Assembly: GCF_000686945.1 (NCBI RefSeq)
Contig: NZ_JMME01000005.1
Span: 1 to 64,000 of the forward strand
Source: Selenomonas sp. AE3005
Lineage (GTDB): Bacteria; Bacillota; Negativicutes; Selenomonadales; Selenomonadaceae
Length of the DNA: 64,000 nucleotides
Direction of reading: 5' to 3'
Shown: in pieces, positions 24,275 to 52,257 of the stretch
Layout: every line of letters begins with the position of its first letter
How positions within the stretch are numbered: the first letter of the stretch is position 1
Translations under genes and position numbers: made by a program
The notes under the pieces: generated by a model
Told to the model about the DNA's origin: nothing
Database searches by the model: none
The model's input: the letters and a program-made list of their open reading frames with translations, nothing else

Positions 24275-24277
24275 TTG

Positions 24278-26273: not shown

Positions 26274-26306
26274 GAGGGCAGGGCAAAAGCGCCCTGTCCT
26301 TTTTAA
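26274..26306 (+). terminator. Terminator after the capsid gene
   Basis: Stem GGGCAGGGC (26276-26284) / GCCCTGTCC (26291-26299) followed by TTTTT. Confidence 0.85.
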
Positions 26307-26335
26307 ATGATTATAAACAGAGGTGAATAGACTCT

Positions 26336-26686: not shown

Positions 26687-26688
26687 CG

Positions 26689-27261: not shown

Positions 27262-27272
27262 GGTGATATAAG

Positions 27273-29191: not shown

Positions 29192-29194
29192 TTT

Positions 29195-35234: not shown

Positions 35235-35277
35235 GCAGGAATATAGCCAAATAAAAGAAGTAATGATGTTTATAGTG

Positions 35278-35313
35278 ATGGCGGCGGGGACTACTGTTCC
35301 TCTCCGCCGGAAA
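35278..35313 (+). other. GC-rich hairpin in the gap before the next gene
   Basis: GGCGG-GGA / TCC-CCGCC imperfect stem with no T-tract. It lies just ahead of the AAAGGATG site of the next gene. It may slow ribosomes or protect an mRNA end; role unknown. Confidence 0.35.
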
Positions 35314-35326
35314 GGATGATTATTTG

Positions 35327-35806
35327 ATGGATGGAAATGACTGGCTTAAGGCTTTAGGTATTTTAGGTGCTGGCTACTTAGGCGGCAGGGCTCTGGGTAT
35401 GTTCGGCGGCGGCAGTAAGAAAGTAGCTGGTGACGCCTTGGCAGGTTTGGACCCGACAGCCTCAATGGAAACCAAAGGGGAGGGGTATTCCGCAGGGACA
35501 GCGCCTAAAGAACTTACTGTTACCGTACCGCAGGGAAAGAAGTTTGATTTCAGCAAGATAGCGCCAGACCTCTTTAAAGGTTTCGGACAGCTCATGGGTG
35601 GCGGCAAGGCTCCTACTCCTGCTGCCGCATCAGAGGCTCCTGCCCCCGCAGCCTCCGCTGCTCCCGTAGTACAGGGACAGAACTTAACGCCGAATAATGG
35701 CGCGCCGGGAAGCTATCAGGCAGGAATCCAGTTGGCCCCTACAGTACAGGGCTATAATTTCCTGGGTAATTTCGGCCTTCCTTATGGCCAGCAGAGATTC
35801 TTTTAA
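35327..35806 (+). CDS. Gly/Ala/Pro-rich small virion protein
   Basis: 159 residues. Residues 5-30 are hydrophobic with glycines (LGILGAGYLGGRALGMFGGG), a possible membrane-inserting segment. A Pro/Ala-rich linker (APTPAAASEAPAPAAS, about 102-118) follows, and the C terminus is QG-rich. Between two large ejection-type proteins, a small membrane-active protein would fit the ejectosome, by analogy with T7 gp14. Not recognised by family. The TTG three bases before the ATG is an alternative start. Confidence 0.55.
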   Translation: MDGNDWLKALGILGAGYLGGRALGMFGGGSKKVAGDALAGLDPTASMETKGEGYSAGTAPKELTVTVPQGKKFDFSKIAPDLFKGFGQLMGGGKAPTPAAASEAPAPAASAAPVVQGQNLTPNNGAPGSYQAGIQLAPTVQGYNFLGNFGLPYGQQRFF

Positions 35807-35824
35807 CTGAAAGGAGACTAACGG

Positions 35825-37762
35825 ATGCCATATACAGGACAAGCAGGATATGGGGCCTTTAACGCTTTAGCTGATATCCTGTCTACGTATATAAACAAAA
35901 GAGCCGTTGATGGTGCTGCCAAGATGGCCGAACAGTTTGAAAAAGACGCAGAAGCGGCACGACAGCCACAGTATGAAAAGCCTGCTCCTATCGTAACGGA
36001 ACAGGGCGCCTACGCCAAGGCGGACGCCATGGAGAATCTTCGGCGGCAGGGAATAATGCCTGACATAGACTTCCTTCATGTTAACGGGCCGAAACAGCTT
36101 CATTACGGAGCACAGGCTGCTTTTGATAAAGTAGTACCCAACGGCCTGCAGCACATTAACTATACAAACGGTTCGCAGGATGCTAAGACGCAGTATAACT
36201 TTACACAGCCGACACAGGCTTTTGGTTATCAGCCTAAGAACGCTTTTAATCTGGCAGATAATCAGAATGGCAACTACTTCCCAATGGGCACGAGCACGCC
36301 GCAAGCTGGAGAGCAGTCAGCGGCTCCGACGACAGAATCTGCCGCTGAAGAAACTTCGCCCGTACAGAAGCCATTTAACGCAGATTTCGCGGCACAGAAG
36401 GCGCTGCACCCGGAACAGTTCATCGGCAACTACTATGTGGGTAACAATCCTGACGATGAAACACTGAAGAAGGCTTATATCCAGAAATATCAGGAACATA
36501 ACCAGCGTCCGAACTACCAGAACATGAGCGTAGGCGATATGCAGCGTGAATTTGCACAGCGGAATAATCCCCTGACCGGCATTACCCCCCAGTCGCAGGA
36601 AGACTACGTCAATAAGTCCATCGAAAACTACAAGTACCGTAAAGGCATGATGGAACATCCTGAATGGTACGTAGGAAGCCGTTATATTGGTGATAAGCTG
36701 ACGGGTGATGAGAAACATGATGCTGAAGTCCGCAAAGAAGCACAGGTAGCCAACGAAATTCAGGCGGCCCATGACCGTGAACAGCAGGGAACACCGGCTG
36801 CATCGGAATTCCAGTATAAAAATCCAATTAAGGAACAGTACGGCGCAAACGGCAAGATAGCAAAGGCGGCTCCTTCTTACGATGAATACAAACACGCGAT
36901 GAAGAAGAAACGCGCAGAAGTGCTTAGACAGATGGTAAGCAAGTACGGTGAGGCCGCTGCGGAAAAAGCCCTTAAGATGATTGATTCTACCATTGAGGAC
37001 AACCTTGACACGTATCAGGACAGTCTACTTGACCAGCAGTTAAGAAGAACCAATGATAAGCTCCTGGCCCGTGATAACAAAGGCAACGTGACAGGGCGCG
37101 CAGATATGAGCAGACCTGCGAACAAAATAGCGTTCCTGACGGAACTTGCCAACTACAACAGCATGGCGAAGCGTTTCAATAAGCCTGCCTATGACCTGGC
37201 CATTGCCAAAGAGATTCTGAGCAGTGACAACATTAAGACTGTAAACATTGATTCCGGCGGCAATATTCAGCTTATCGGTGTACCCGCTAACGGCGGCAAG
37301 TTCGATGACGGCAGTCCTTATCAGGTTCTTGGCACTATCAGCAAGAGCCTGAGTCCGAAGGATATTCTGGTATCGAAGGATAAGGAAAAAGATAGACAGA
37401 GCAAAGAGAAGATGAATCATGAAGATAACCAAACAAAACTGGATGTGGCCCATATCAACGGTGAATACCATATTCGGGGTGCGAATATTAAGGGTGCAAC
37501 AGGTGGTAAAAGTGCCATAGGCTGGCGTAACAAACTGAATCACCTGGGCGAACTTGCTTATCAGTCCATAGGCGAGGATGGCATTCCGGGGACGGCATAT
37601 AGCGATGCTGATGACCACAACGTAGCAGCTTATGCCGATGAATTACATAAATTCATGGAGTCTTCAGAGGCCGACGAGGATGATATCCGCTGGGCAAAAC
37701 AGGAGCTGGAACGAGTTAGTGGCAAGTACCAGAATAATCTCCAAGTCTATAGCGCACAGTAA
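35825..37762 (+). CDS. Large internal virion/ejection-type protein
   Basis: 645 residues, soluble, helical and Gln/Asn-rich. The first about 70 residues are helical (GAFNALADILSTYINKRAVD). The middle has two related segments about 80 residues apart: PEQFIGNYYVGNNPDDETLKK and PEWYVGSRYIGDKLTGDEK, each followed by a charged helix. A conserved-looking region EILSSDNIKTVNIDSGGNIQ follows. Its place between the Hint protein and the 1961-residue enzyme suggests the middle member of a three-protein ejection set like T7 gp14-15-16. This is inferred from order only. A terminator-like hairpin follows. Confidence 0.6.
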   Translation: MPYTGQAGYGAFNALADILSTYINKRAVDGAAKMAEQFEKDAEAARQPQYEKPAPIVTEQGAYAKADAMENLRRQGIMPDIDFLHVNGPKQLHYGAQAAFDKVVPNGLQHINYTNGSQDAKTQYNFTQPTQAFGYQPKNAFNLADNQNGNYFPMGTSTPQAGEQSAAPTTESAAEETSPVQKPFNADFAAQKALHPEQFIGNYYVGNNPDDETLKKAYIQKYQEHNQRPNYQNMSVGDMQREFAQRNNPLTGITPQSQEDYVNKSIENYKYRKGMMEHPEWYVGSRYIGDKLTGDEKHDAEVRKEAQVANEIQAAHDREQQGTPAASEFQYKNPIKEQYGANGKIAKAAPSYDEYKHAMKKKRAEVLRQMVSKYGEAAAEKALKMIDSTIEDNLDTYQDSLLDQQLRRTNDKLLARDNKGNVTGRADMSRPANKIAFLTELANYNSMAKRFNKPAYDLAIAKEILSSDNIKTVNIDSGGNIQLIGVPANGGKFDDGSPYQVLGTISKSLSPKDILVSKDKEKDRQSKEKMNHEDNQTKLDVAHINGEYHIRGANIKGATGGKSAIGWRNKLNHLGELAYQSIGEDGIPGTAYSDADDHNVAAYADELHKFMESSEADEDDIRWAKQELERVSGKYQNNLQVYSAQ

Positions 37763-37769
37763 TCAAACA

Positions 37770-37797
37770 GAGGGGAGGGCTTTCCTCCCCGTTTTTA
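37770..37797 (+). terminator. Terminator-like hairpin before the giant enzyme gene
   Basis: GGGGAGG (37772-37778) / CCTCCCC (37784-37790) then GTTTTT. The following gene starts only 20 bases later, so it may act as a partial terminator. Confidence 0.75.
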
Positions 37798-37816
37798 AAG
37801 GAGCGATGTAACCTAA

Positions 37817-40800
37817 ATGAGTTTTATTACAGAAAGTCTTGAGGCAAAACGCGAAGAGCGGGAAGGGGCGGCCCAGTATGGTTCTTCGGTTGACTATATA
37901 ACAGCGAATACACCGGTTGAAGATACAGACTCCAGTGAAGAAAGTTCAGATGGCGGCGGCTCCTTTTGGGGCGAAATGGCGCAGGATATCACAAAGGCGC
38001 TTCAGCATGTAGGCCAGGCAATGTCTAATGTTCGTCAGCAGGAACAGGGAGACTTAGAACAGGTAGGCGCGGAAACAGGTCAGGCAGCAGCAGACTGGTA
38101 CAATGTTGAAGGAAAGGATTATAACGACTTATCTGTTCCCCAGAAACTTGTTCATGGTGATTTCAGGGGCGCGCTTAATGACTTCGACGACTACTACACC
38201 AATAATGCCCTTCAGCGTTTTGACCAGCTGCGGGATGATGACGGCAACGTAACACCTGAATCCGCATCTGAAGCAGAAAATGGCAGCAGTTATGGTTATG
38301 ATGCTACGGGAAGCGCCCCCGTTATTGACCCGAACTCTAACTATGACTATAGTACCACCGAATTCGCGGATAACCTGCCGGGGCATATAGGAAGAGATTT
38401 TCGTGACTGGTCAAATTTGGTTGACCAGGACTTTGATACAGTCTGGGAAAGCGGCGGTTCAGAAGGTAAATGGAAACTCTATGAAGACGCCGTCGCAAAT
38501 CCAGCAATGAAGGTTGCGGCAACTCCTTATATGCCTGCTCCTGCCCGTGTCATAGCCGGGGCAGTAGCGGCTCCTTCATTTATCAGTGGCGTAGTAAACG
38601 CGGCATCCGATGGCTATAACGGCGAAGCAGGCAATGGTTCTGGCGGTGTCCTTGGCGCAGCCAATAATGTAGTGGATACCGTAATTGGAAAACCGTTGGA
38701 AGAAGTTGTGGGCGCAGTTTCTCATCCGGGCCAGACGCTTTCCGCTATTTACGACCATCCCGCAGACCTCTGGAACAAAGTCCTTGAACCCGGCATGATT
38801 GTCGAAGGCGGTATCCGGGCAGGCAAGAAAGGCTATGATTATACACGCAGCAAAGAGACTGAACCTGCGCCTGAACCTGAACAGGCTCCAGAGCCAACAT
38901 CAGAAGGGATACAGACAGGTTCTGAATATGATGCTGCCATTAACGAAGCCTGTGCCAGGTACGGATTAGACCCCAGACTGGGACACGCGGTAGCACAGAC
39001 AGAAAGCCAGCATGGGAAGAGTACTTCAAACGTATTCGGTGTCAACGGTATCTCTGACCCCTATGAAAGTATCGATGTCGGCGTAAAGAGCTTGAAGCGC
39101 TGTATTGATGATAACGGCGGGGATATTGATGCAGGACTGAGGGAATACAACGGCAACGCGAACCCGGACTATACTTCGACTGTGCACCAGATAGAGAATG
39201 AGTACGGAGGCTCTGGAAGAGCCCCCGGAAACTCTGCTTCCTGGGATATCGACATGAGTGAAGTCGGCAACACCATGGATAATCATTCAGTTGGCTGTGT
39301 GGAAGCCGTAACCAAACTGGGCAAGAATAATGATTTCCTGGGCCGCGAATTAAATAACGGCGTAGTTGGTGTACCTAAACTCATTGAGGACGCGAAGGCA
39401 GAGGGTCGTTACCTGGACTATGACCCCAGTAAGCTGGAACGTGGCGACGTTATCGTCTTTGACGGCGATGAACATGTCATGATGTATGCCGGTGACGGCC
39501 GTATCGTAGGCAACAGTTCCAGTCTGGATAGAATCGTAGAGCGCGGCTTAAATGAACAGGGGCAGACGCCTACGGGTATTATCAAGGCAGGAGGAGCAAG
39601 AGGCGGCACGGGGAATGTACGAAATCTTGCCAGGGATACCGAGGAAACTGCGGCAGATAACAACAGTCACGCTTTTGATGAAGTAAATAATGCGGCCGAA
39701 AAAGGCTCGGACAACCTTCCCTCGCTGGAAGATGAGGCCAGGGCGGAAACAAACAGCCTGCCTGACCCTGAAGAAATCTTCGGTAAAGAGGAAAAGCAGG
39801 AGGTTAAGGTAGAGCGCCAGCCTGGTGAATCTGATGATGCTTACGCAGAACGCCTCTATAATCAGGGAGTAAAAATCGGCAATAAGGATGTACCGTCACA
39901 TAATGATGCTGCTGTCATTAACCAGATAAAAGATGAACTGGGTGAGTTGAAGAAACAGCAGGATATCGCACTGGGGAAACCCGATAGGCTGTCCATCCTT
40001 GGTTTATCTGATGCTACAGTAAATGCGATGAAAAAGCTGGGCGATAAGGAAATCCCCTTAAAGTCTTTCAGTGAAACAGACCGCCTTGTACTGAAAAAAG
40101 CAGGCTATGAGGGAGAAACCGTAAACGCCTCAAAAGTGGCAGCGGATTATGATGCCAAAGTCCTGATGGATAAAATGATTCGCCAGCGGGCAGAGGAAAT
40201 TAAGATTAAACAGGCACAGCTGGGAGAACTTGAACTCCGTAAGCCCGAACTAAAAGAAGAGCCCGAACTCCGTAAGCCGGAGCCCAAAGAAGAACCGGCA
40301 GGCGAGGACTTGATTGACGACCCGGAATCCTGGGATATCAGGGTTAAGGATGATTTTCAGAACAAAGCACCCAAGGAAGACGAAGGTTTAATTGATGACC
40401 CCGAATCCTGGGAACTGGAAGCACCCAAAGATACCGATACCCAGATGAAACGGAATATCGAAAAGATGCTTGAAGACCCGTCCCTGCGCGGTGAATGGAT
40501 TAACCCCGAAAAGAAATCAAACTCACTGGCGGAAAGAACTTTCCCGAAGAATAAGAAAGACAGGGTACAGGAAGAACCGGAAGAAAGCGTAGAACCTATC
40601 ACCAACAAAGAACTGCGTGACCGTATAGAGGCTTTCGGTTACAGGCTGGATGATTCCAACTTCAACGAGAAAAGGGCAGGCGGCCGCGATTCCTATGTGG
40701 ATGGCAATACAATCGTAACCAAGCATCAGAACGATACGGACGCACAGGTTCATCATCTCGCAGATAAGCTGACGGATGACTTCAATATTACGGAACAGCG

Positions 40801-43702
40801 CTACGACCAGGAACTTAATGACGGCCTGAAAAAGATGTGGGAACGGAACAAGTACGGCGTAGACAGGGAAAAGGAATACTACCATGATGATGAAGGTATC
40901 CACAGCCCGGATAATCGGCGCTTTGCCGTCATGAACGCAATAAAAGAGCATCTTCATGACCCTGAACAGGCTAAGGCAGATTTCCCGCAGTTTGACCGTG
41001 TTATTGAAGAGAAGATTAAGGAAAGCGGCCTCGAAACACAGGTAAAGGAACTGCAGGACGGGCTTTACCGCATGCGTACCCAGTCTCCTGAAGCCGCAGT
41101 AGAAGCATCACTGGAGGCCTATGACCCGTACGCAGGACTGGGCAGGATAGAAACCGCGAAACAGATGGTAAGCAACGGGCTGACTAAGCTCAAGATGCAG
41201 CTTGTTGACGAGGACTATGGCGCCAAGCGTTTCGATGAAAAGAAAAAAGCAGCTGGCGGCAGCGTAGAACATTCAAAAGACACCCTCTACGACAACATAT
41301 CCTACGCAAAAGGTACGGGCAAAGGCGTAGCAGAACTTATGGTTGAACCTCATAAGGCAGAGGATGCAGGTAAAATCGCGAATTCCATCAATAAGGTCTT
41401 TGGCGAAGGTACAGTCAAGGAACACAAGAGCCTGCATAATATCATTCAGGGCTATCATCAGGCAGTTAAAGGCAAGTTCGGCAACAAGGACATGCTGCAG
41501 GCACTCAATGCTTATCTGGCTGCCAATACGCTCCACCGGAATCTTAAGGCGCGTGAAAACAGACTTACAAATGAGATTAATCGCCGTGAGAACCTTATAA
41601 AGAACAAGGGGATAGATACGGAACTCAACATGGAAGATTCTGCTCCTGCAGCAAGAGCGAAAGGCTATATGGCTGCCATGGACTTCGGCGGCAAGCAGAA
41701 GCAAAAAGCGCTGGAAAAAGAACTCCATCAGCTCCGTTCAGGTGGTTACCAGATGCCCTGGCGCAATGGCGTCGTGGACGCGAGAAAAGTGGTCAAGAAC
41801 GCGCCTCAAGAAGTAAAAGACGCCGCTAAGGAGATTTATGATTATACTGATAACCTGCTGAATATCGCGGAGAAGTCGGGGCTTATCTCAAATAAGGTGC
41901 ATAAGGCGCTTAAAGGAAACTTCCTGCCGATATCCAAGGCTTTCAAGCCCCAGCTGGAATCCGCGTTAAAAGAAGCCGGTGTACCCGATGCGGAAATTAA
42001 GAGCGCGATGAGAACCTTTGACAGCATTAAGGGCAGCAACCACGATATCCACAACGTACTGGAAGACGTGGAAAACTATACCCAGACGCTCACCAATGAG
42101 GCGGCGCGGAATAAGCTCGTTATTGAGCCGATGGTAAAAGACCTCAAGGCGTTTAAGCTCGGACGCGAAGTTGACCCCGAAAAGGTAACGGATGAAAGTA
42201 CCGTAGTCTTTGGCTGGGAAAACGGCAAAAGGGTGGCTTACGATGTACAGGACCCGCTGATTAAACAGGCGATGGACGTAATCGAGTCGCCGGAAGAAAC
42301 CAATGCCATAATGAGATGCTGGGCAGGCATGATGGATTTCTGGCGCGCAGGAACGGTTAACACCCCGGCCTTTACCGCAACGCAGCTTGTTCGTCAGTTC
42401 GTGGATGGCCTTCTGCTGGGTGAAGGAAAGATGTATAAACCTGTGAAAACCGAGATTGACGGCCTTAAGAGCCTTAAATCCAAAGACCAGGATTATTACG
42501 ACTTCAAGGTTGCAGGTATCAGCCACTCCAACATGGTAGCTCTTGACAAAGGCAACGTTACCAAGTCTGTTAAGCAGGCATACGATAAGCCTCTGGTGAC
42601 CTGGAAAGGATTCAAGGAGAAAGCCACTGCGATACCTTCTGCGGTAGAAAGTTCAACCCGTCTGGGCAAGTTTAAGTCTGATTTAAAAGGCGGCGCAGAC
42701 TTTGAAGATGCCGTAATGAACGCCAAGAGGGTGGCCGTAGACTTTGGCCGCCATGGTTCCTTCGGTAAGAAGGTCAACCGCTACGGACCGTTCTTCAATG
42801 CGGCAATTCAGGGTACAAGAGCTTATATACATGCCCTGTTCCGTGGCAGGAATAGGAAACGCGCAGCCATCGTAGCAGGTACTGCGGTGGGAATGACTTA
42901 TCTGAACTGGCTTCGCATCCATAATGAACCCTGGTATCAGGATATGTCGGACGAAGAAAAGAGCCGCAGCTGGTTCTTGTCCGAACATCTGACTATTCCA
43001 AAGAGCCAGGAACTTGGTGCTCTCTGCGGCGCCTTTGAAAATCTCTTTAACGCTACGCAGGATGGTAAGTACGGCAAACATTTACTGGAAACAGCCAAGC
43101 TCTTATATGAACTTCTCCCCGGCATGCCGACAACCGGCCCGTTAACAGCTGTAGAACTTAAAATGAACTACGACCTCTTCAGCAATCGTGAAATCGTAGC
43201 AGATAAGTATAAGAAAAAGGACTTCGACAACTCTTACGATAAGAACAAGACCAGCACTATGGCTGTAGAAATAGCCAGAGCTTTAGGGGTTAATCCCGCA
43301 CAGGTTGAATTCACGTCAAAAGGCGTCGGTGGCCAGATGGCGAAACAGCTCATGGATACTGCAGACTGGGCTAAGGGCAATCGTAACCTGACACTTGGAA
43401 AAGCCCTGGGATTCAGTGCGAAGTTTACGCCGGATAAGCATTCTTCACAGGCAGTTTCCGACTTCTATGAGCTGAAGGAGAAAACAGCCAAGGCATTTGA
43501 CGGCACGAAAGAATCTCCCGGCGGGACAAATAAGTATAATACGACCGCCATGAAAAAGAACTTCCGCCTTAAACAGATGTCTGCTTCTGACCGCCGCGAC
43601 TATATGTTTGTGGAAAAGGTAGAGCATGACCTGAAGAACATAAAGGATAAGAATAAGCAGCAGGAATACATCAAGAAAGCCATGAGGGGATACAAGAAGT
43701 AA
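37817..43702 (+). CDS. 1961-residue ejection protein with lytic transglycosylase and NlpC/P60-like domains
   Basis: Residues about 368-480 are an SLT-type lytic transglycosylase: CARYGLDPRLGHAVAQTES with catalytic Glu396, then NVFGVNG and LREYNGNANPDY. Residues about 485-610 look like an NlpC/P60 or CHAP cysteine peptidase, with Cys494 in NHSVGCVEAV and His553 in GDEHVMMYAG after RGDVIVFDG. A coiled, charged middle carries a duplicated LIDDPESW motif. The last about 560 residues (NTPAFTATQLVRQFVDG, NRYGPFFNAAIQGTRAY, TIPKSQELGALCGAFE) resemble the large polyvalent-protein LPD38-like domain. The enzyme would cut glycan and peptide bonds of the wall during DNA entry. ATG follows AAAGGAGCGATG. 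No transmembrane helix is obvious. Confidence 0.85.
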   Translation: MSFITESLEAKREEREGAAQYGSSVDYITANTPVEDTDSSEESSDGGGSFWGEMAQDITKALQHVGQAMSNVRQQEQGDLEQVGAETGQAAADWYNVEGKDYNDLSVPQKLVHGDFRGALNDFDDYYTNNALQRFDQLRDDDGNVTPESASEAENGSSYGYDATGSAPVIDPNSNYDYSTTEFADNLPGHIGRDFRDWSNLVDQDFDTVWESGGSEGKWKLYEDAVANPAMKVAATPYMPAPARVIAGAVAAPSFISGVVNAASDGYNGEAGNGSGGVLGAANNVVDTVIGKPLEEVVGAVSHPGQTLSAIYDHPADLWNKVLEPGMIVEGGIRAGKKGYDYTRSKETEPAPEPEQAPEPTSEGIQTGSEYDAAINEACARYGLDPRLGHAVAQTESQHGKSTSNVFGVNGISDPYESIDVGVKSLKRCIDDNGGDIDAGLREYNGNANPDYTSTVHQIENEYGGSGRAPGNSASWDIDMSEVGNTMDNHSVGCVEAVTKLGKNNDFLGRELNNGVVGVPKLIEDAKAEGRYLDYDPSKLERGDVIVFDGDEHVMMYAGDGRIVGNSSSLDRIVERGLNEQGQTPTGIIKAGGARGGTGNVRNLARDTEETAADNNSHAFDEVNNAAEKGSDNLPSLEDEARAETNSLPDPEEIFGKEEKQEVKVERQPGESDDAYAERLYNQGVKIGNKDVPSHNDAAVINQIKDELGELKKQQDIALGKPDRLSILGLSDATVNAMKKLGDKEIPLKSFSETDRLVLKKAGYEGETVNASKVAADYDAKVLMDKMIRQRAEEIKIKQAQLGELELRKPELKEEPELRKPEPKEEPAGEDLIDDPESWDIRVKDDFQNKAPKEDEGLIDDPESWELEAPKDTDTQMKRNIEKMLEDPSLRGEWINPEKKSNSLAERTFPKNKKDRVQEEPEESVEPITNKELRDRIEAFGYRLDDSNFNEKRAGGRDSYVDGNTIVTKHQNDTDAQVHHLADKLTDDFNITEQRYDQELNDGLKKMWERNKYGVDREKEYYHDDEGIHSPDNRRFAVMNAIKEHLHDPEQAKADFPQFDRVIEEKIKESGLETQVKELQDGLYRMRTQSPEAAVEASLEAYDPYAGLGRIETAKQMVSNGLTKLKMQLVDEDYGAKRFDEKKKAAGGSVEHSKDTLYDNISYAKGTGKGVAELMVEPHKAEDAGKIANSINKVFGEGTVKEHKSLHNIIQGYHQAVKGKFGNKDMLQALNAYLAANTLHRNLKARENRLTNEINRRENLIKNKGIDTELNMEDSAPAARAKGYMAAMDFGGKQKQKALEKELHQLRSGGYQMPWRNGVVDARKVVKNAPQEVKDAAKEIYDYTDNLLNIAEKSGLISNKVHKALKGNFLPISKAFKPQLESALKEAGVPDAEIKSAMRTFDSIKGSNHDIHNVLEDVENYTQTLTNEAARNKLVIEPMVKDLKAFKLGREVDPEKVTDESTVVFGWENGKRVAYDVQDPLIKQAMDVIESPEETNAIMRCWAGMMDFWRAGTVNTPAFTATQLVRQFVDGLLLGEGKMYKPVKTEIDGLKSLKSKDQDYYDFKVAGISHSNMVALDKGNVTKSVKQAYDKPLVTWKGFKEKATAIPSAVESSTRLGKFKSDLKGGADFEDAVMNAKRVAVDFGRHGSFGKKVNRYGPFFNAAIQGTRAYIHALFRGRNRKRAAIVAGTAVGMTYLNWLRIHNEPWYQDMSDEEKSRSWFLSEHLTIPKSQELGALCGAFENLFNATQDGKYGKHLLETAKLLYELLPGMPTTGPLTAVELKMNYDLFSNREIVADKYKKKDFDNSYDKNKTSTMAVEIARALGVNPAQVEFTSKGVGGQMAKQLMDTADWAKGNRNLTLGKALGFSAKFTPDKHSSQAVSDFYELKEKTAKAFDGTKESPGGTNKYNTTAMKKNFRLKQMSASDRRDYMFVEKVEHDLKNIKDKNKQQEYIKKAMRGYKK

Positions 43703-43776
43703 ATTGAAAAAGAGGCTGTTTCGGCAGTCTCTTATCAATAGAAGGGCCTGGAATAAAAAATAGAGGAAAGAGAAGC

Positions 43777-44028
43777 ATGAATGACAGTGAAAATATACTC
43801 ATGACCCAGCTTAACCGTATTGAGGTCAAGATGGATGCACTGACGGGAAGCCTGAACAAAGTCTCCGACCGATTAAGCAGGTTAGAAGCCAAGGTGGAGG
43901 CGCAGGATAATATAAACAAGAAGGTAGATGAACTCTGGGCCATGAAGAATCAGGGAGTGGGGATTAAAACCATCTTTGCCTGGCTGATTCCGTTACTGCT
44001 CAGTATGTACGGTATCTATATCAAATAA
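43777..44028 (+). CDS. XhlA-like holin-associated membrane protein
   Basis: 83 residues: a coiled coil (LNRIEVKMDALTGSLNKVSD, about 8-52) then a single C-terminal membrane segment (IFAWLIPLLLSMYGIYI, about 65-81). This is the haemolysin XhlA layout of Bacillus PBSX and many Firmicutes phages, where it works with a holin and an amidase or lysozyme in lysis. GAGGAAAGAG precedes the ATG. It starts a small lysis cluster with the next ORF, although the endolysin is 5 kb further on. Confidence 0.75.
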   Translation: MNDSENILMTQLNRIEVKMDALTGSLNKVSDRLSRLEAKVEAQDNINKKVDELWAMKNQGVGIKTIFAWLIPLLLSMYGIYIK

Positions 44029-44042
44029 GGAGTTGAGGGATA

Positions 44043-44189
44043 ATGCTGGAACATGTTACGGTCAACGGAATAGTGGCTACGGGCCTGGTAGTTGCTTTAA
44101 TTGTCGGCATGTGCGGCGGTTACGATGTATCCGTAGTCAACGGGATAGTAGGCGCCCTCGCCGGTGTTTTAATTGGTAAGCACCTGTAA
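44043..44189 (+). CDS. 48-residue double-membrane-segment protein, holin candidate
   Basis: ATG 44043 follows GGAGTTGAGGG. Two hydrophobic stretches (GIVATGLVVALIVGMCGG and GIVGALAGVLIG) each start after a similar VNGIV motif (TVNGIVA, VVNGIVG), an internal duplication. A tiny two-helix protein beside an XhlA-like gene is a good holin or pinholin candidate. Confidence 0.65.
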   Translation: MLEHVTVNGIVATGLVVALIVGMCGGYDVSVVNGIVGALAGVLIGKHL

Positions 44190-44305
44190 GAGCCGACAAC
44201 TCCGGTTTCTCCAACAATCAAGGGGATGCTGAACGGAGGAAAACGAAGTTTTCCGACATGAACGGAATGACTGGAGTGAGCATAGCGAGCGAAAGGAATG
44301 AGTGA
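44190..44305 (+). other. Short intergenic stretch with palindrome
   Basis: Contains a perfect GGAAAAC-GAA-GTTTTCC palindrome (44238-44254), then a run of GAGTGAGC/GAGCGA-like short repeats that includes the AAAGGA ribosome site of the next gene. No gene seen. Confidence 0.4.
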
Positions 44306-44638
44306 GTGATTAGCCTTAAAAAAGGGGCTGTTACGTTGGTGCGCGGCGATACTGCCGTGCTCAACGTGGCCTTACATGATAACACGCTGGATAAGGATTA
44401 CGAGATGAATGAAGGCGATAAGCTGGTATTTACCGTAAGGGAAGACGCAGGGGATACGGGCGCGCCCTTACTTCAGATAGAAAGCAGTCAGCCGCGTATC
44501 TTTTTTAAACACGAGGATACGAAGGATTTAGAGGCGGGCCGCTATGTGTATGATATCTGTCTGTTTACTTCTTTAGGCATGGTACAGACTATAGGGCCGG
44601 CCGCGTTCATCCTAAAGCAGGACGTTAACCACGACTAA
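44306..44638 (+). CDS. Baseplate/fibre upper-protein-like domain protein
   Basis: 110 residues of beta type: KGAVTLVRGDTAVLNVALHD, DKLVFTVREDA, LEAGRYVYDICLF. This matches the small N-terminal BppU-like domain often placed just upstream of collagen-like receptor-binding proteins in Firmicutes phages. It may anchor the fibre to the tail. Start GTG 44306, 8 bases after AAAGGA. The collagen-like gene follows 38 bases later. Confidence 0.6.
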   Translation: MISLKKGAVTLVRGDTAVLNVALHDNTLDKDYEMNEGDKLVFTVREDAGDTGAPLLQIESSQPRIFFKHEDTKDLEAGRYVYDICLFTSLGMVQTIGPAAFILKQDVNHD

Positions 44639-44675
44639 ATCTCTGATTTAGTCTCTAGTGAAAGGAATGAAATGA

Positions 44676-46574
44676 TTGGCTACTTTGGAAGCTGAACTCA
44701 ATAGCACAGTAGATATCAGCGCCGAGTTAAGTGTAGGTGTATTAAAGGGCGACAGAGGACCGGCAGGCCCTAAAGGTGATAAGGGTGACAGGGGCGAAAA
44801 AGGCGAACAGGGGCTTACAGGCCCACAGGGGCCGCAAGGCCCCGCTGGCAATACCGGCCCGGAAGGCCCGAGAGGATTAAGAGGCGCGGACGGTCCGATG
44901 GGGCCTAAGGGCGATAAGGGCGAGCAGGGTGAAAAAGGCGCGGACGGTCTTTCCGCGTATCAGATAGCTGTAAAGAATGGCTATAACGGCTCGGAAACGG
45001 AATGGCTTAAAAGCCTTAAGGGAGACAAAGGTGATAAGGGCGCGGATGGAAACGGCTCTTATGACCTGTCTGATTACTACCGTAAGGAAGAAGTAGACGA
45101 AAAGCTGGCGACGACAGCTGCTGGCGGCAGCCTTGATTTGTCTGGTTACGCAAAGACGGCAGAGATTCAGGAAACCTACGCCACCCAAAAACAGCTGGAG
45201 AATATTCAGCTTACTCCGGGGCCGAAAGGCGATAAGGGCGACAAGGGTGAACAAGGGCTTACAGGCCCGATGGGACCACAGGGCATGCCGGGAGCAAACG
45301 GCAAGGACGGACAGGAAGGCCCGGCTGGTCCACAGGGGCCTAAGGGCGATAAAGGCGCGGACGGAAAAAGCACCTATGAAAGCTATGTTTCTACCGTAGC
45401 TGACGGCGAAACTCCGATGACGGAAGCTGAATGGATAGAATCCCTGCGGAAACCGGAAGAAGCAAAGGGCGCCTATAAACTGCTCCCTATGGCTGAATGC
45501 CGTAAAGTAACAGACCGCATGAAGGGCTTCACAATATGCAGTTCAGCGACCGAATTTAAGAACCCTGAAGAGATGAACCTGCCTGAAGATATAGATGATT
45601 CGTCAGCCTGGCACTGCTTTAATTTCGGTAGTTCCGGCAGCAACATGTTTCAGATACTTGTAGGGAAAAGCGAAAATGCCTACTGGCGTAAAGTATCGGG
45701 GAGCGAAGAGGAACCAATCCCCTGGAAGCCATTTTCCAGCATGGATACGTTAAGGCCGCAGACTGGTGACTATATATCCGATTTTGTAGGAACCTGCAGC
45801 TTTAATGAAAGTACCCTCAGTTCCCGTGAAGAACTCCCCGGCAGCCTTCCTGGCAGTCAGGAGCCGTTTGTCGGGTTACATCTGGCAGGTTCGGATACCG
45901 ATACAGGCAGATTCCTTGACATCGTATCAAGCAGTGAAGGGACGTATATCCGCAACTACGAAATCGATAATCCGGCAGAGTGGGTAAAACTTGATAAAGG
46001 TGGCCAGTTTGATGCCAGCACGGTAGCCAAGGACGTACTTACGGGAGAGATTAGCGCCAATACAGGGTTCAGCGGAGCAGCTACGAGAAGGGTGAATAAT
46101 AACGGCTACTCTTTTGATGTGCGCACAGAAAGACTTGACTGCGGCACTGCCCAAACGGTTATTGAAGCACTTAATTCCCTAGACATGGCTATAGCCGAAG
46201 TAATCAGTCAAATATCGGCCGACGCTATTCTTAAACAGAATACGCATGAACTTACTGCCACAATGTTTAAAAGCGGCAGTTTAAAAGACGTAAAAACAGC
46301 AAGCGGGGCAATAAACGGTCTGGCCAACGAAATCAGTTCACTGTTGACTAAGCTGAATAACGCAGTTACTGAAACAACCAGATACGAAAAACTCATCAAT
46401 GGGCAAATGGGAGGCAGCGAGGATGAATCCCTGGCCGGCTACAACCTGAGCAATGCAGTAAATGGCTATAACAACTACGCACTCACGGGAGAAAAGAAAA
46501 GCCTGGCCGGTGTTATTGAGGATATCGATAAACGCCTTAAAGCCCTTGAAGGACTGGAGACGAAGAAACTTTGA
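44676..46574 (+). CDS. Collagen-like tail fibre, receptor-binding protein
   Basis: 632 residues. Gly-x-y collagen repeats lie at about residues 27-80, 112-122 and 178-230 ([20 protein letters not shown] style). They are interrupted by short helical or beta spacers ([20 protein letters not shown]). The C-terminal 330 residues hold a globular region with pyocin-knob-like spacing ([13 protein letters not shown] ... [20 protein letters not shown] ... [16 protein letters not shown]) and a helical tail. Collagen-type triple helices form long trimeric fibres, and the C terminus should bind the host surface. Start TTG 44676 after AAAGGAATG. It overlaps the next small ORF by 4 bases. Confidence 0.85.
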
Positions 46575-46741
46575 GTGAAACGGCAAGTGCCCCAAAGGGG
46601 CTGGAAGCAAAACTGAAGAGAATAGCCGACCTGATAAGGGAGAAGGCCGAGAAAGATGACCTTATGAATATCGATGAGATGATACAGACGGTTCTCATGC
46701 TTGACCTGGAAACAGATAAGGAAGGAGGTGGCGGCCAGTGA
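46571..46741 (+). CDS. 56-residue helical protein, paralogue of the next gene's N terminus
   Basis: TTG 46571 overlaps the fibre stop (TTGA). LEAKLKRIADLIREKAEKDDLMNIDEM parallels LEGKLTMLAGAIRDKLGVETTF in the next protein, the 'IR.K......T.DE' module often seen at the head of phage fibre proteins (quoted in pieces: LEAKLKRIADLIREK / LEGKLTMLAGAIRDK). It ends in GGGGQ. It may be an adaptor or chaperone for the LRR fibre. Its stop overlaps the next start by 4 bases. Confidence 0.55.
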   Translation: MSETASAPKGLEAKLKRIADLIREKAEKDDLMNIDEMIQTVLMLDLETDKEGGGGQ

Positions 46742-48867
46742 GTCTTGAAGGCAAACTTACCATGCTGGCGGGAGCAATAAGGGATAAGCTGGGCGTAGAA
46801 ACTACTTTTACCCTGGATGAGCTGGCAGAAACGATTGGCGGCTTTAAACTGGCAAAAGACGACGACGGAAACTGGAAGGTATCCTATCCTGCGGTAAATG
46901 AAGACCGCCTGGCTTGTGGTGAATTTGATAAAGGCAGCTACGGAATACAGGTCAGCTATGACGGCTTTAAAAACGCTGACTGGAACGGCGTAAGTGCTGA
47001 CCTGGAAGACGGAGAAACGATAACCAAGTCCTGCAGCTGGACAGTAAAAGCACCTCCGCAGGGCGGTACATTTACGCTGGTTACGAACTGCTACGAAGCA
47101 TCAAACAGTAACTGCTATCTGGCGGGTGTCGTGAAAGATAAGGAAACGAAGACTTTTGATTACGCTACACTGGATAAGATGAAAGTTGGGGAAAGCGGCC
47201 TTTACTATAAGGACAATCCCTACAACTGGCACAACAAGGATATAAAAGTCGATATTCCTCTTGAGCCGGGGGAAACCTGCGTCGTTACTTTATTTGGCTG
47301 TGTAAAAGCAGCATCCAAGAACCGCGCGGCTCTCTATGCTACAAGATATAAGCTGGTGGCGCCGGAAACTACTCTTATTGACGGTATTGAACCCGTAACG
47401 GAAGAAATGAAGGATGTAGACGTAACTCTGACCAGTTCGCTGGAAAATGATGACCTGCCATTTGGTTTTTATCTGGTTAGCGATGATTCGCCTACTGCCA
47501 TAGGGAAGGACAATAAATTACTGAGAGTCAGCACACAGTCCAATGGACATAGTGTTGTACATTACACGTTTAAGCCTAGTAGCGACGCATCAATGTATAT
47601 AGATGCGGCCTTAGAGAGCGAATCTAATTATGACTATGGCTTAATTGCTGTCGACACAATAAAATACTCCGCGGATTCTTACAAGAGTATTAAATCCTGG
47701 AACTGGAGTACACGTCCTGATAGTAAAGTACTGTGGGGTTCTGGGAAAGTTTCAAGCGATAAAAACAAGGAAATCAAACTTAAGGCGGACACACAGTACT
47801 ACCTGTCGATACTTTACGGAAAGGATTCCAGTGGGAATACGGGAGCAGATAGTGTCTGGATAAACAGTATCCGTATAAAGATGGATGCGAAAAAAACAAT
47901 TAAGACATATCACCTGTCCCAGCATAACTATAAGATGACGGACGTATTCCCGGACACATACGCAAGCCTGACGGACAATGTATTGAAAAACCTGGACTAT
48001 ACGCACTGCACCACTTATGAGGGAATGTTTGACTGTTGCACGGGGCTTACGAATATAGAGCTGGATGTATCGAAGATTCCTATACCTGAGGGATTGACGA
48101 ACATTGTACGTGGTTGTACCGGCCTTAAGACGATTACGTTTAAGGGACTTACGGCAGATAATGAAGGACTGGTTACGGGAGAGCTCATCGGAAACACGGA
48201 AGCTGCTGTAAGAACCCAGGATTCTGAAGGCAAAAGTCTTCGTATGCGTTATATGTCGGCGTCTGAAATTGAAGCTGCGAAAACGGAAATAAATAATACA
48301 AGGAAACTTGTTATTCCTGACGGTACTGAAGCAATTCCGGACAATGCGTTCGCGAATATGGAAAAAGTAATTATATCAGCTAAGATTCCCAGCAGCGTAA
48401 AAGCGATAGGTAAAAATGCGTTCTACAATACTAAGTTCCAGTGTAATATAACTGCCGAAGGCATAGAAACGATTGGTGACCATGCATTTGCTTACTCGGA
48501 AGTTCCTACGACCTGGGCCGATACAGCCGTAGATGACCATACCTGGAACTTCCCAGCTCTGAAAATCGTCGAAAGCGGAGCCTTTGAAAATGGAGCCACA
48601 AAATACACAGGGAAAACCATAATATTTGGCAGTAAAGGAAAAGGCGTAGAAGATATAGCGGCCGATGCGTTTAATCAGTTCATTGGATACTGCAGTAATA
48701 AAGAATGGGACGCGGTAAAACAACGTTACAATTATAGTTACAGGGAAACAACGCTCAAAATTTACTCGAATAAGCTAGAGCCTACGTCGTTCTATAGGCT
48801 TCATTTCAATTCGAGTGACATATCTTACGGTACTCATGGCATTGAGGGCGATGTGTACCCGGCATAA
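46738..48867 (+). CDS. LRR-containing tail protein, putative receptor-binding
   Basis: 709 residues, GTG start coupled to the upstream small ORF. The N-terminal LEGKLTMLAGAIRDKLGVE module is followed by about 400 residues of beta domains. From residue about 415 there are two LRR styles: a BspA/DUF285-like part (MFDCCTGLTNIELDVSKIP, RGCTGLKTITFKG) and LRR_5 repeats (IPDNAFANMEKVIISAKIP, IGKNAFYNTKFQ, IGDHAFAYSEVP). LRR_5/BspA proteins bind surfaces and are common in Negativicutes phage tail proteins. With the collagen fibre it likely sets host range; inferred. Confidence 0.75.
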   Translation: MSLEGKLTMLAGAIRDKLGVETTFTLDELAETIGGFKLAKDDDGNWKVSYPAVNEDRLACGEFDKGSYGIQVSYDGFKNADWNGVSADLEDGETITKSCSWTVKAPPQGGTFTLVTNCYEASNSNCYLAGVVKDKETKTFDYATLDKMKVGESGLYYKDNPYNWHNKDIKVDIPLEPGETCVVTLFGCVKAASKNRAALYATRYKLVAPETTLIDGIEPVTEEMKDVDVTLTSSLENDDLPFGFYLVSDDSPTAIGKDNKLLRVSTQSNGHSVVHYTFKPSSDASMYIDAALESESNYDYGLIAVDTIKYSADSYKSIKSWNWSTRPDSKVLWGSGKVSSDKNKEIKLKADTQYYLSILYGKDSSGNTGADSVWINSIRIKMDAKKTIKTYHLSQHNYKMTDVFPDTYASLTDNVLKNLDYTHCTTYEGMFDCCTGLTNIELDVSKIPIPEGLTNIVRGCTGLKTITFKGLTADNEGLVTGELIGNTEAAVRTQDSEGKSLRMRYMSASEIEAAKTEINNTRKLVIPDGTEAIPDNAFANMEKVIISAKIPSSVKAIGKNAFYNTKFQCNITAEGIETIGDHAFAYSEVPTTWADTAVDDHTWNFPALKIVESGAFENGATKYTGKTIIFGSKGKGVEDIAADAFNQFIGYCSNKEWDAVKQRYNYSYRETTLKIYSNKLEPTSFYRLHFNSSDISYGTHGIEGDVYPA

Positions 48868-48900
48868 AGAATAACCATAGGAAGGAGACAGATAAAGATA

Positions 48901-49500
48901 ATGAAAGTTTACGATATCTCTGACTGCCAGGAAAGCGGCAGGGTAGCGGCACTAAAGGAAAAAGGCGCGGACGGTATCATCTTAAAGCTGGGGGAAACCT
49001 TAGGAGGCGTACCCACATTGGATGACCGGTTTACGGAATTCGTTAATGACTGTAAGGCGCTGGATATCCCCTACGGCATCTACTACGTAAGCCATGCGGG
49101 AGACGAGGATAAGTTCCAGGAAGAAGCAAAGTGGATTAACGACAGGCTCTATGAGTTCCTGGGTGAGAGCTTGCCTCCCTTGGGTATCTGGTGGGACATG
49201 GAAGTACCGGCCGTGTGCCGGGAAGATGTCTGGCCGCAGCTTAGGGACGCGATAGGCACGATGCAGAGCTGGTACGAAGGCTATAACAGGATAGGTATCT
49301 ACGCCCAGTATTCGTATTTCTATGATTATCTGGACTTCTATGAGTTAAACTACTACGATATCCCCATCTGGGTTGCCCAGTACGGCTATCATGAGAACAG
49401 TTTAAAGGCGGAGGTGCCGCAGCTCTATCATGTTGGCTGGCAGTTTACTACGCATGACGAAACGCAGGATGAAAGCGAATGGTATGGTTTTAAGGACTAA
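48901..49500 (+). CDS. Endolysin, GH25 lysozyme
   Basis: 199 residues, one catalytic domain without wall-binding repeats. GH25 muramidase marks are YDISD at the N terminus (Asp5), KLGETLGG, PYGIYYVSHA, the catalytic WWDME (Asp99, Glu101), and IGIYAQYSYFYDYL followed by IPIWVAQYG. It cuts the MurNAc-GlcNAc bond of peptidoglycan. No signal peptide, so a holin is needed for release (candidates at 43777 and 44043). GGAGAC before the ATG is about 14 bases away. Confidence 0.92.
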   Translation: MKVYDISDCQESGRVAALKEKGADGIILKLGETLGGVPTLDDRFTEFVNDCKALDIPYGIYYVSHAGDEDKFQEEAKWINDRLYEFLGESLPPLGIWWDMEVPAVCREDVWPQLRDAIGTMQSWYEGYNRIGIYAQYSYFYDYLDFYELNYYDIPIWVAQYGYHENSLKAEVPQLYHVGWQFTTHDETQDESEWYGFKD

Positions 49501-49524
49501 TCAAATAAAGGAGAATGATTTTAG

Positions 49525-49707
49525 ATGAAATTCTGGAAGACTTTAGGACAGGTTGTTATTGGCACCGTAGCAGGTTACGGTATTGACCGTATCGAGAATC
49601 CGAAGGCAAGCTGGGTAAATTACCGTGAACAGCTGCTGGAACAGACCAGCCAGATTGCGTTAGGCTATCTGATGGAAAAAAGAATTGACGGCACGAAGAA
49701 AAGCTGA
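49525..49707 (+). CDS. Hypothetical 60-residue protein after the endolysin
   Basis: AAAGGAG precedes ATG 49525. MKFWKTLGQVVIGTVAGYGI has a mild hydrophobic start; the rest is helical. It could be a small membrane-associated lysis accessory (spanin-like function is possible in a diderm host), but no lipobox or clear TM is present. Not recognised. Confidence 0.5.
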   Translation: MKFWKTLGQVVIGTVAGYGIDRIENPKASWVNYREQLLEQTSQIALGYLMEKRIDGTKKS

Positions 49708-49839
49708 TAGTATATAGGTGTAATTTAAACACCCTTAGGGTATAAAAGGAACGTCAAATACGAGTTGGGCTAACGTCTATCGCGTATCAGACACAGATAT
49801 CTTAAATAGATATAAGAGTAAGTAACAGTAAATAACAGC

Positions 49840-49868
49840 CGGAGCCGTCTTTATGGCGGCTCTTTTGT
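49840..49868 (+). terminator. Terminator of the late operon
   Basis: GAGCCG (49842-49847) / CGGCTC (49857-49862) followed by TTTTG. The 49708-49841 stretch before it shows no gene. Confidence 0.75.
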
Positions 49869-49913
49869 TATGCTTTTTTCTACTTGACATTTTCGGAAGA
49901 GTCGCTTGCATCA

Positions 49914-49942
49914 TTAACAGTAAATGTTTCCTTCTATATAAT
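49914..49942 (+). promoter_or_regulatory. Integrase promoter
   Basis: TTAACA (49914-49919), 17-base spacer, perfect TATAAT (49937-49942). A second TATAAT at 49950-49955 has no good -35. Gives int its own transcript, independent of the late operon. Confidence 0.7.
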
Positions 49943-50011
49943 ATCTTGTTATAATATATGACAGATGGGGCCATCTTTTTCACGCTTTATAACGAAAGGC
50001 GGCGAAATAAG

Positions 50012-51256
50012 ATGGCAGAAGAAAAGAAATACAAATACATAAGCTACGAACCGAAAAGAGGTGAATATCGAGTCCGTATCCGCCGTAATGGCAAATTACT
50101 GTTCAACAGGCGCTGCGAAACTGAGATGGAGGCCGTTAAGGAAAGAAATGCTTTTCTGTCCGGTATCGGCATGGGTATACCTGCCGACAGTAATCCCTGG
50201 TCAACAGATAAAGTCGGGGATAAAACCCTGGGCGAAGTTCTCCCATTATGGTTTGAAAAGAGAAAGCGCCCGTTCTTAAAAGAAGGCGGCGTTGCCCAGT
50301 ACATGGTTAAAATCAACTGGTGGCTGCAGGTTCTTGGCAGGTTCTATGTCAGGGATATAAGCTATGACATCGTACAGGCCTGTGTATTAAACAGCTGTGA
50401 AACAAGAAGTGTGGCCACAGTAAGAAACTACGTATCAGCACTGGGCGCCTTTTTTACCAACGTGGGGCTGCCTAATCCCTGCGCGGGCATCCAGTATCCC
50501 GTACAGCCTATGCCTGAGAAAAAAGCGGCATTCACGGATAGGGAGGCCAAGCAAGTCCTTCATTATGTTAAGCAGGAAATGGATTACTGGTACTTCCTAC
50601 TGTTTACGCTTTACTTCGAAAGCGGAATGAGGTTAGGAGAGGGCCTTGCTTTTACCTGGGGCGATGTAGACTTTGACGCAGGCAGAATACATATTCATAG
50701 GACGGTGGTATATTCAAAGGACGCAGGAGGCTACGTCGTACAGGACATGCCCAAAACTGCAGCAGGTGACCGTCTCGTGGCTATATCGCCTAAGTTTAAG
50801 TTCCAGCTCTATATGATGTACCAGAGGCTGAAGAAACAAACAGATAGGGATTTAGAGAACGTGCCGGTCTTCGCCAACCCTGAAAATGGATACAGGCCCA
50901 GAAGCCCCATGTGGTTAACCAATAAGTTCTCAGATGTCCTCTGGCGCTTAGGGTTAAAGAGAAAGCGGAATTTGACTTTACACAGCGCAAGGCACATGAT
51001 GGCCACGAAAATGGTTAAGGCAGGAGTCAGCATCCCGACAATAATGAAAGCAGGCGGCTGGAAAAGGGCCTCAACTCTACTGGAAGTTTACGCGGAGTCT
51101 TCGCAGGAAGAAACAGATAAAGCACTGAGGGATAACTCCCTGACCGACAGCAAAAAGAGGAAAAAAGTTAAGGTAGAGGATACGCAGCCGAGCCTTGTTT
51201 TACTTGCGGGTAAGAAGGATGATGGGCTTAGTCAACAGAAGAAGCGCGTTTTCTAA
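50012..51256 (+). CDS. int: Tyrosine integrase
   Basis: 414 residues. The N-terminal arm-binding part (YISYEPKRGEYRVRIRRNGK) resembles the beta-sheet fold that reads arm-type sites. A SAM-like core-binding domain follows at about 65-165. The catalytic domain has Arg207 (SGMRLGE), His324 and Arg327 (HSARH), Trp350 in the second His/Trp place (GGWKRAS) and nucleophile Tyr360 (EVYAES). It joins attP to attB without DNA synthesis. ATG 50012 is chosen over upstream starts because AAAGGCGG lies just before it. The gene is 200 bases from attR, with two TTGGCCCCA pairs in between. No excisionase gene is recognised. Confidence 0.95.
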   Translation: MAEEKKYKYISYEPKRGEYRVRIRRNGKLLFNRRCETEMEAVKERNAFLSGIGMGIPADSNPWSTDKVGDKTLGEVLPLWFEKRKRPFLKEGGVAQYMVKINWWLQVLGRFYVRDISYDIVQACVLNSCETRSVATVRNYVSALGAFFTNVGLPNPCAGIQYPVQPMPEKKAAFTDREAKQVLHYVKQEMDYWYFLLFTLYFESGMRLGEGLAFTWGDVDFDAGRIHIHRTVVYSKDAGGYVVQDMPKTAAGDRLVAISPKFKFQLYMMYQRLKKQTDRDLENVPVFANPENGYRPRSPMWLTNKFSDVLWRLGLKRKRNLTLHSARHMMATKMVKAGVSIPTIMKAGGWKRASTLLEVYAESSQEETDKALRDNSLTDSKKRKKVKVEDTQPSLVLLAGKKDDGLSQQKKRVF

Positions 51257-51268
51257 TAAAAAAATGAC

Positions 51269-51333
51269 TTGGCCCCATTGGCCCCAAAAATGGGCTTCAG
51301 CCCTTGTCCACACACTTGGCCCCATTGGCCCCA
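51269..51333 (+). repeat. Two tandem TTGGCCCCA pairs, right-end copies
   Basis: TTGGCCCCATTGGCCCCA at 51269-51286 and again at 51316-51333, 47 bases apart, plus one at the left end (13729-13746). Placement between int and the att core fits integrase arm sites. Confidence 0.7.
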
Positions 51334-51452
51334 GGAAAATTTTTTCGTGGACAAAAATAAGGCGACTCCATCGTACGCGGATACAATTGTATTGAAAACT
51401 GGTACAAATCATGGTAAAATACCAAAAATGGACGAAAAATCGACGATTTTCT

Positions 51453-51482
51453 TTGACAAAACCTGAACAATGGTGTTAAAAT
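51453..51482 (+). promoter_or_regulatory. Hybrid yceD promoter with phage-supplied -35
   Basis: Perfect TTGACA (51453-51458), 18-base spacer, TAAAAT (51477-51482). The first four bases of the -35 box are phage DNA; the -10 is within the att repeat. The host version at attL has TTGCAA with a 17-base spacer. Confidence 0.75.
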
Positions 51483-51516
51483 ATTGCGAGGTTGATGCTG
51501 AAATGATGAACATAAA
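51457..51516 (+). repeat. attR, 60-bp direct repeat
   Basis: Identical to 13583-13642. Includes the -10 box, the GCGAGG ribosome site and the first four to five codons of yceD, so the host gene stays intact after integration. Confidence 0.93.
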
Positions 51517-52003
51517 TATTGCTGAACTTGGTACTGATTTAGGCAGACAGCTGCCCTTCGCTTTTACAGCTACGGCAGCGGAGCTGGAGGCACTCAGTGA
51601 TGACTATGAATTTGCCGGCCCGATAGAGGTGACGGGAAATGTGGTTTATACCGGAGTGCGCTGGCGGGTAAGCGGCAAAATTGCCGCTGTTAAGACTTAT
51701 GTCTGCAATCGGTGCTTGCAGGCTTGCCGGGAAGAACAACTCCACGAATTCGCGGAGGACTTCACCCGTGAGGCGACTGAGGATGACTCGATTAACGTTT
51801 TTTCCGGTGATTTACTGGATATCGAGGACCTTGTTCGCGACACGTTGCTGGCCGCCCAGTCCCTCAGTAATATCTGCAAGCCCGACTGTAAGGGGCTTTG
51901 CCCAAAATGCGGACATAACCTGAATGAAGGCGATTGCGGTTGCGACCGTTTCGTGCCTGACCCGCGCATGGCAGCATTACAGCAGTTATTGAACAAAGAC
52001 TAA
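51503..52003 (+). CDS. yceD: YceD/DUF177 family protein
   Basis: 166 residues. The C-terminal SNICKPDCKGLCPKCGHNLN with C-x3-C-x2-C pattern and the earlier CNRCLQAC form the metal-binding Cys sets of the DUF177 family. It is almost always encoded just before rpmF, and in E. coli and plants it affects 23S rRNA accumulation. The ATG at 51503 (or 51506) follows GCGAGG; the upstream ATG at 51470 lies inside the promoter and has no ribosome site. The start codon region is part of attR. rpmF follows 25 bases later. Confidence 0.88.
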   Translation: MMNINIAELGTDLGRQLPFAFTATAAELEALSDDYEFAGPIEVTGNVVYTGVRWRVSGKIAAVKTYVCNRCLQACREEQLHEFAEDFTREATEDDSINVFSGDLLDIEDLVRDTLLAAQSLSNICKPDCKGLCPKCGHNLNEGDCGCDRFVPDPRMAALQQLLNKD

Positions 52004-52028
52004 GTAAACCTGAGGAGGTGTATCCGCA

Positions 52029-52208
52029 ATGGCAGTTCCAAAGAGAAAAATGTCCAAGGCCCGCCGCGACCAGCGTCGTGCTAATTGGAAGCTGGAGGCT
52101 CCGGGCTATGTTGCTTGCCCGCAGTGCCACGAACCGAAGATGCCCCATCATGTATGCCCTGAGTGTGGCTACTATGACGGCAAAGAGGTTGTCGCAGCAG
52201 CTGAATAA
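52029..52208 (+). CDS. rpmF: Large ribosomal subunit protein bL32
   Basis: 59 residues, the usual bL32 size. [20 protein letters not shown] at the N terminus and a zinc-ribbon C-terminal part ([20 protein letters not shown], four Cys) identify it. AGGAGG lies 11 bases before the ATG. A strong terminator at 52220 ends the yceD-rpmF transcript, so the fab operon downstream relies on its own promoter. Confidence 0.96.
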
Positions 52209-52218
52209 GCAGAAAGTA

Positions 52219-52257
52219 AATAAGCAGGACACCATTGTCCTGCTTATTTTATTTTTG
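52219..52257 (+). terminator. Terminator after rpmF
   Basis: 11-bp perfect stem ATAAGCAGGAC / GTCCTGCTTAT, loop ACCATT, then TTTATTTTT. Confidence 0.9.

Follow-up and report, generated by a model that had tools for sequence, protein, structure and literature searches.

What happens to a ribosome-related operon when a prophage sits in its promoter? The question is raised by the locus studied here, a 64-kb window (the whole stretch of DNA analysed) in which a prophage of 37.9 kb lies between rpiB and yceD-rpmF. The host is a rumen bacterium of the genus Selenomonas, S. ruminantium clade; its genome was grouped with 21 others as one genus, and the nearest relatives of its YceD, with 84-86% identity, are labelled S. 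ruminantium.

The prophage and its attachment sites

The main features of the locus are the following.

13093..13554, + strand, rpiB, host gene on the left flank and neighbour of yceD in relatives (Pfam LacAB_rpiB, E 4e-49)
13583..13642, + strand, attL copy of the 60-bp core (100% match to 51457-51516)
13643..51456, + strand, prophage (HNH, terminase, portal, scaffold, major capsid, tail fibre, GH25 lysin, integrase)
13729..13745, + strand, TTGGCCCCATTGGCCCC repeat, left phage arm
49958..51256, + strand, tyrosine integrase, 432 aa (Pfam PF00589, E 4e-19; PHROG integrase, E 2e-53)
51269..51285, + strand, TTGGCCCCATTGGCCCC repeat, right phage arm
51316..51332, + strand, TTGGCCCCATTGGCCCC repeat, right phage arm, kept in the RUG13114 remnant
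51457..51516, + strand, attR copy of the 60-bp core, holding the yceD -10 box, leader, start and first codons
51503..52003, + strand, yceD (DUF177; Pfam YceD, E 2e-22)
52029..52208, + strand, rpmF (bL32), copy 1 (Pfam Ribosomal_L32p, E 6e-30)
52218..52249, + strand, rpmF terminator (dG -28.9 kcal/mol, z -10)

The two copies of the direct repeat are identical over their 60 bp and separated by 37,874 bp. Each contains the -10 box TAAAAT (51477-51482 at attR) with an extended TG, GAGG at 51488-51491 and the yceD ATG at 51503 with the first codons; the core also holds ATGATGAACATAAA of yceD, downstream of the leader GAGGTTGATGCTGAA. A previous sequence-only reading had located the repeat over the -10 box, the ribosome site and the first yceD codons and not at a tRNA, and this was confirmed, no tRNA being found anywhere in the 64-kb window. 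The same reading had pointed to the empty locus of related genomes. There the junction is normal: rpiB lies directly 5' of yceD in 15 of the 16 genus loci checked, with an insertion in the 1 exception, so that the joined flanks represent the expected empty site. Perfect att repeats, an adjacent integrase gene and rejoined flanks in relatives were all found, as in prophages of tyrosine recombinases.

The prophage genes were assigned by PHROG and Pfam matches, HNH endonucleases and a collagen-like tail fibre being among the products. The integrase gene ends 200 bp short of attR, and by alignment to the remnant described below its true start is more likely the ATG at 50012 than 49958. Three exact copies of TTGGCCCCATTGGCCCC were present in the window, every one within the phage arms, and when up to 3 mismatches were allowed there were 4 matches against 0.31 expected; these copies are candidate arm-type sites of the integrase. 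An inverted repeat of the core, AACCT..CAAT/ATTG..AGGTT, was also considered as the integrase core sites and rejected, since it is missing from the sites of other species, and for this reason the crossover was left unplaced within the 60 bp.

A second intact prophage of the same type was not found in 189 family genomes, nor in IMG/VR besides its own record. The scan of the viral collection gave no other yceD-promoter junctions, and the short leader pattern searched in viral contigs gave only chance-level matches. Two large prophage proteins of 1229 and 1961 aa (31545-35234 and 37817-43702) had no PHROG match and are possibly internal virion proteins. Adjoining the lysin there is a protein of 709 aa (46738-48867) with a BspA-type leucine-rich repeat region, a possible host-interaction cargo.

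Promoter sequences at the two junctions

The signals predicted at both ends of the prophage are listed below.

13580..13608, + strand, orphaned host yceD promoter at attL, TTGCAA-N17-TAAAAT, extended -10 TG
13629..13724, + strand, 31-codon ORF formed at attL, yceD start joined to phage DNA (from translation)
13771..13801, + strand, intrinsic terminator just within the left phage end (fold of 13760-13815, dG -21.9, z -5.5)
49841..49863, + strand, terminator-like hairpin in the lysin-integrase gap
49914..49942, + strand, predicted integrase promoter TTAACA-N17-TATAAT, directed toward yceD
51392..51420, + strand, P1, predicted, wholly phage-borne promoter TTGAAA-N17-TAAAAT, extended -10 TG (14/14 element bases kept in the remnant)
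51453..51482, + strand, P2, predicted hybrid promoter TTGACA-N18-TAAAAT (promoter scan)

The promoter at attL was found as the sequence-only reading had it and shows 9/12 consensus bases, while the one at attR, which also has the extended -10 TG, shows 11/12; the better -35 match of a phage-host hybrid at attR was therefore borne out. That reading also had the phage bring a complete TTGACA 18 bases from the TAAAAT. Box and spacer are as described, but only TTGA comes from the phage, and CA is given by the first two bases of the 60-bp repeat, so the -35 box of P2 straddles the junction. Three elements had escaped attention: P1 as a second complete promoter, the interval from int to yceD without a terminator and a related remnant at the same site. 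Considering that no terminator was found from int to yceD, int transcripts may also read through into the operon.

By insertion, the native -35 box and the region upstream of it were exchanged and the -10 box was retained in the core. The junction carries two outward-reading phage promoter sequences, P1 and the hybrid P2, which are conserved in the related remnant. On the left side, the 31-codon ORF is presumably a by-product of insertion. The terminator at 13771-13801 is expected to halt transcription from attL and should silence the orphaned promoter; since this promoter would yield only the 31-codon fusion before a strong terminator, the phage would be shielded.

We consider it likely, judging by these sequences, that a temperate tailed phage inserts in the yceD-rpmF promoter and maintains expression of the operon, with a phage-borne replacement for the half of the promoter lost by insertion. 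The tyrosine integrase would insert the phage at the yceD promoter, with exchange of all the sequence upstream of the core; the TTGA of the phage would complete the -35 box of P2, 18 bp from the -10 of the core, with the whole of P1 further upstream. In the lysogen, yceD-rpmF would be driven by P2, together with P1 and perhaps int read-through, and its expression would be about normal for the family and higher than the empty TTGCAA site of this strain would give. What is selected would be keeping a ribosome-related operon on, that is, a gene-preserving integration, rather than a specific tuning of bL32.

What is normal for this promoter was established with 38 yceD loci of Selenomonadaceae. 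The -35 box was TTGACA in 36/38 and TTGCAA in 2/38, the spacer measured 17 in 37/38 and 18 in 1/38, and the -10 box was TATAAT in 31 and TAAAAT in the other 7 of the 38 loci. The near constancy of TTGACA and N17 is the footprint of a genuine yceD promoter, and the predicted uninserted promoter of the window strain, with TTGCAA, is the outlier. It is therefore most likely that the prophage restores the family-normal -35 box, with one extra spacer base, instead of adding a boost. The phage -35 had been taken to make the promoter look stronger in lysogens; "restores" suits better a box that 36/38 relatives already have, and the gain may be partly offset by the spacer of 18, against 17 in 37/38 relatives. 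A near-identical TTGACA-N18-TATAAT precedes bS21 in two related genomes and offers a natural counterpart for a spacer of 18 in such a context.

It could be argued that nothing was changed by the phage: attB would once have carried TTGACA, the TTGCAA of attL would be a one-base deletion produced after integration, and the phage would have returned the same sequence. TTGACA is indeed the family norm, TTGCAAAACC equals TTGACAAAACC less one A, and the attL promoter, now facing a terminator, should drift freely. Nevertheless, this history implies an empty promoter with N18, at odds with the N17 of nearly all relatives, and TTGCAA-N17 in near-identical context is native at yceD in the genus g22 (G164-G167) and is found also upstream of fapR in G168 (TTGCAAAACCTGAACAATGGCGTTATAAT). 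These occurrences make TTGCAA appear native and a decay after insertion unlikely. Two further loci, L019 and L020, were considered as remnants of the phage arm and proved to be native, with rpiB directly upstream and with int and the arm repeat absent.

As for the origin of the outlier, the attL stretch GCAAAACCTGAACAATGGTGTTAAAAT is similar to the terminal part of a dispersed repeat (GGCAAAACTGGAACAACGGCGTTATAAT); the repeat gave about 60 matches in the 2.8-Mb genome and 0 with the reversed control. The repeat terminates in GGCAAAACTGGAACAACGGCGTTATAA(T), and degenerate repeat ends were observed at promoter positions of yceD and a biotin-ligase-like gene in this genome and of fapR and bS21 in other genera. 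The yceD promoter of the window strain was probably derived from, or remodelled by, an end of this repeat.

The remnant belongs to another species, represented by the MAG RUG13114 (L012, G014:C43), in which an insertion of 3.4 kb separates rpiB from yceD. The order inside it is an acyltransferase-like and an SGNH-like ORF (both labels come from reading the translations), a 5' fragment of int, the right phage arm and yceD. The int fragment, which is 73% identical to the 5' region of the window integrase, is fused straight to the right arm (about 74%), and in the arm the TTGGCCCCATTGG repeat is retained, as is the run ACGATTTTCTTTGACAAA. By this alignment the phage is lost and the predicted promoter-bearing arm persists; the two ORFs beside it are a possible lysogenic-conversion cargo left behind. 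A search of 189 family genomes with the arm DNA gave, beyond short host-promoter or chance stretches, matches in the own genome and in RUG13114 only.

The promoter elements had been designated by the promoter scan ahead of the arm comparison, which is one pairwise alignment whose second sequence comes from a single MAG; in it the -35, TG and -10 of P1 plus the -35 of P2 were kept in 20/20 positions, against 87/123 (71%) elsewhere (Fisher p=0.0018). For P1 alone the figures were 14/14 and 68/103 (p=0.005). This comparison bears on the view that the -35 box is incidental, the arm being kept for the binding of integrase, excisionase or host factors and yceD being read mainly from elsewhere, for example by int read-through. 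attP arms normally carry protein-binding sites, arm repeats stand on both sides of the core, int has its own predicted promoter with no terminator found before yceD, and part of the arm conservation could come from integrase or excisionase binding sites. We regard this view as improbable, taking into account that the hexamers are fully kept in an arm that otherwise diverges and that the box falls where nearly all relatives have TTGACA.

The operon, bL32 and comparable systems

In the supply of a displaced promoter half, which is the reading we prefer, the genes concerned are only two: the terminator confirmed after rpmF supports the earlier proposal that the effect is limited to yceD-rpmF. A second, unlinked rpmF was present in all genus genomes giving a match (20/20 in Selenomonas); the product of this genome's rpmF2 differs in one residue and the gene has its own promoter-like sequence upstream. 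YceD gave one match per genome across the genus. The second rpmF would buffer bL32 against any change in yceD-rpmF transcription, and YceD would be more exposed than bL32. The tuning of bL32 in lysogens, as had been suggested, is for this reason doubtful. An adaptive increase of bL32 and ribosome assembly in lysogens is the least probable of the explanations considered, since this near-identical second gene exists and the better -35 merely brings the operon back to the family norm, even though attR scores above attL, P1 is an additional promoter and HK022 increases torS expression through such a swap (PMC6814406).

In E. coli, the torS promoters are exchanged for one carried by the prophage HK022, with an increase of torS expression, as was demonstrated experimentally (Carey et al. 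2019, PMC6814406). As at torS-torT, insertion in the host promoter region parts the promoter from the gene and an outward phage promoter is supplied, int being the last identifiable gene and pointing outward. In HK022 the transcript start was mapped inside the prophage and a sensor kinase is rewired (PMC6814406), whereas in the present prophage the -10 of the predicted hybrid promoter lies in the core shared with the host and the target operon is ribosome-related. Islands and prophages at dusA replace the 5' end of the gene, with putative -10/-35 boxes before and after insertion (PMC4482086). The likeness to them lies in a 5'-end-specific integration, an exchanged upstream part and promoter boxes on both occasions. 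The dusA elements also replace N-terminal codons, whereas no island-supplied N-terminal codons were found here, the start and first codons being identical in both att copies.

The prophage is of the same kind as the HK022/torS and dusA cases, and what sets it apart is the split promoter, the retention of a remnant by a second species and a target operon related to the ribosome. It extends to an unrelated bacterial lineage the pattern of a prophage in a host promoter that would bring a replacement for the displaced part, and the RUG13114 remnant suggests that the host can keep the phage promoter once the phage decays. Phages that integrate in tRNA genes restore the 3' end of the gene, their attP carrying a copy of the host sequence that would otherwise be destroyed. 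The gene-preserving logic is the same, but here promoter and 5' end are preserved, and the -35 by equivalence rather than by identity; a split sigma-70 promoter would thereby join the ends of RNA genes and the 5' ends of coding regions among the targets of gene-preserving integration.

Complementary leaders of yceD and rpmF2

The att core also contains the yceD leader, which shows complementarity to the leader of the second rpmF.

51488..51502, + strand, conserved 5' leader GAGGTTGATGCTGAA of yceD, with GGTTGATGCTGAA as the part complementary to the leader of rpmF2
G000:C12:22252-22355, minus strand, rpmF2 leader of this genome (L339)

The rpmF2 leader has a conserved loop, usually TTCAGCATCAACC, flanked by the arms GTGAAATGAATCCA and TGGATTTCAC. 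This loop and GGTTGATGCTGAA of the yceD leader (51490-51502) are exact reverse complements; the complementarity measures 13 nt here and 8-15 nt in the 34 genomes tested. Both sides are near-invariant and covariation is weak. The comparison of rpmF2 leaders with Rfam gave no credible match, the folding energy of the whole leader was nothing unusual and compensatory pairs were absent. Duplex energies did not favour native over swapped pairs of yceD and rpmF2 leaders, so that coevolution is unsupported.

A pairing in trans of the two leaders is plausible but unproven from these sequences, with a DNA-binding regulator as a serious alternative. More tentatively, the att core may be a control point linking both bL32 genes, whose mRNAs would pair in trans and balance bL32, the phage sparing the leader as its loss would break the circuit; we see this as possible, with the odds against it. 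If true, the yceD-rpmF2 complementarity would be a new regulatory link among ribosomal protein genes.

The model built for the rpmF2 leader found it in 35/189 family genomes, each with two rpmF genes; they belong to six genera, essentially those with two rpmF copies. In G023, a two-copy genome missed by the model, the loop was visible by eye, and in genus g11 two genomes with two rpmF matches gave no match to the model. In genomes with a single rpmF, GGTTGATGC is often lost.
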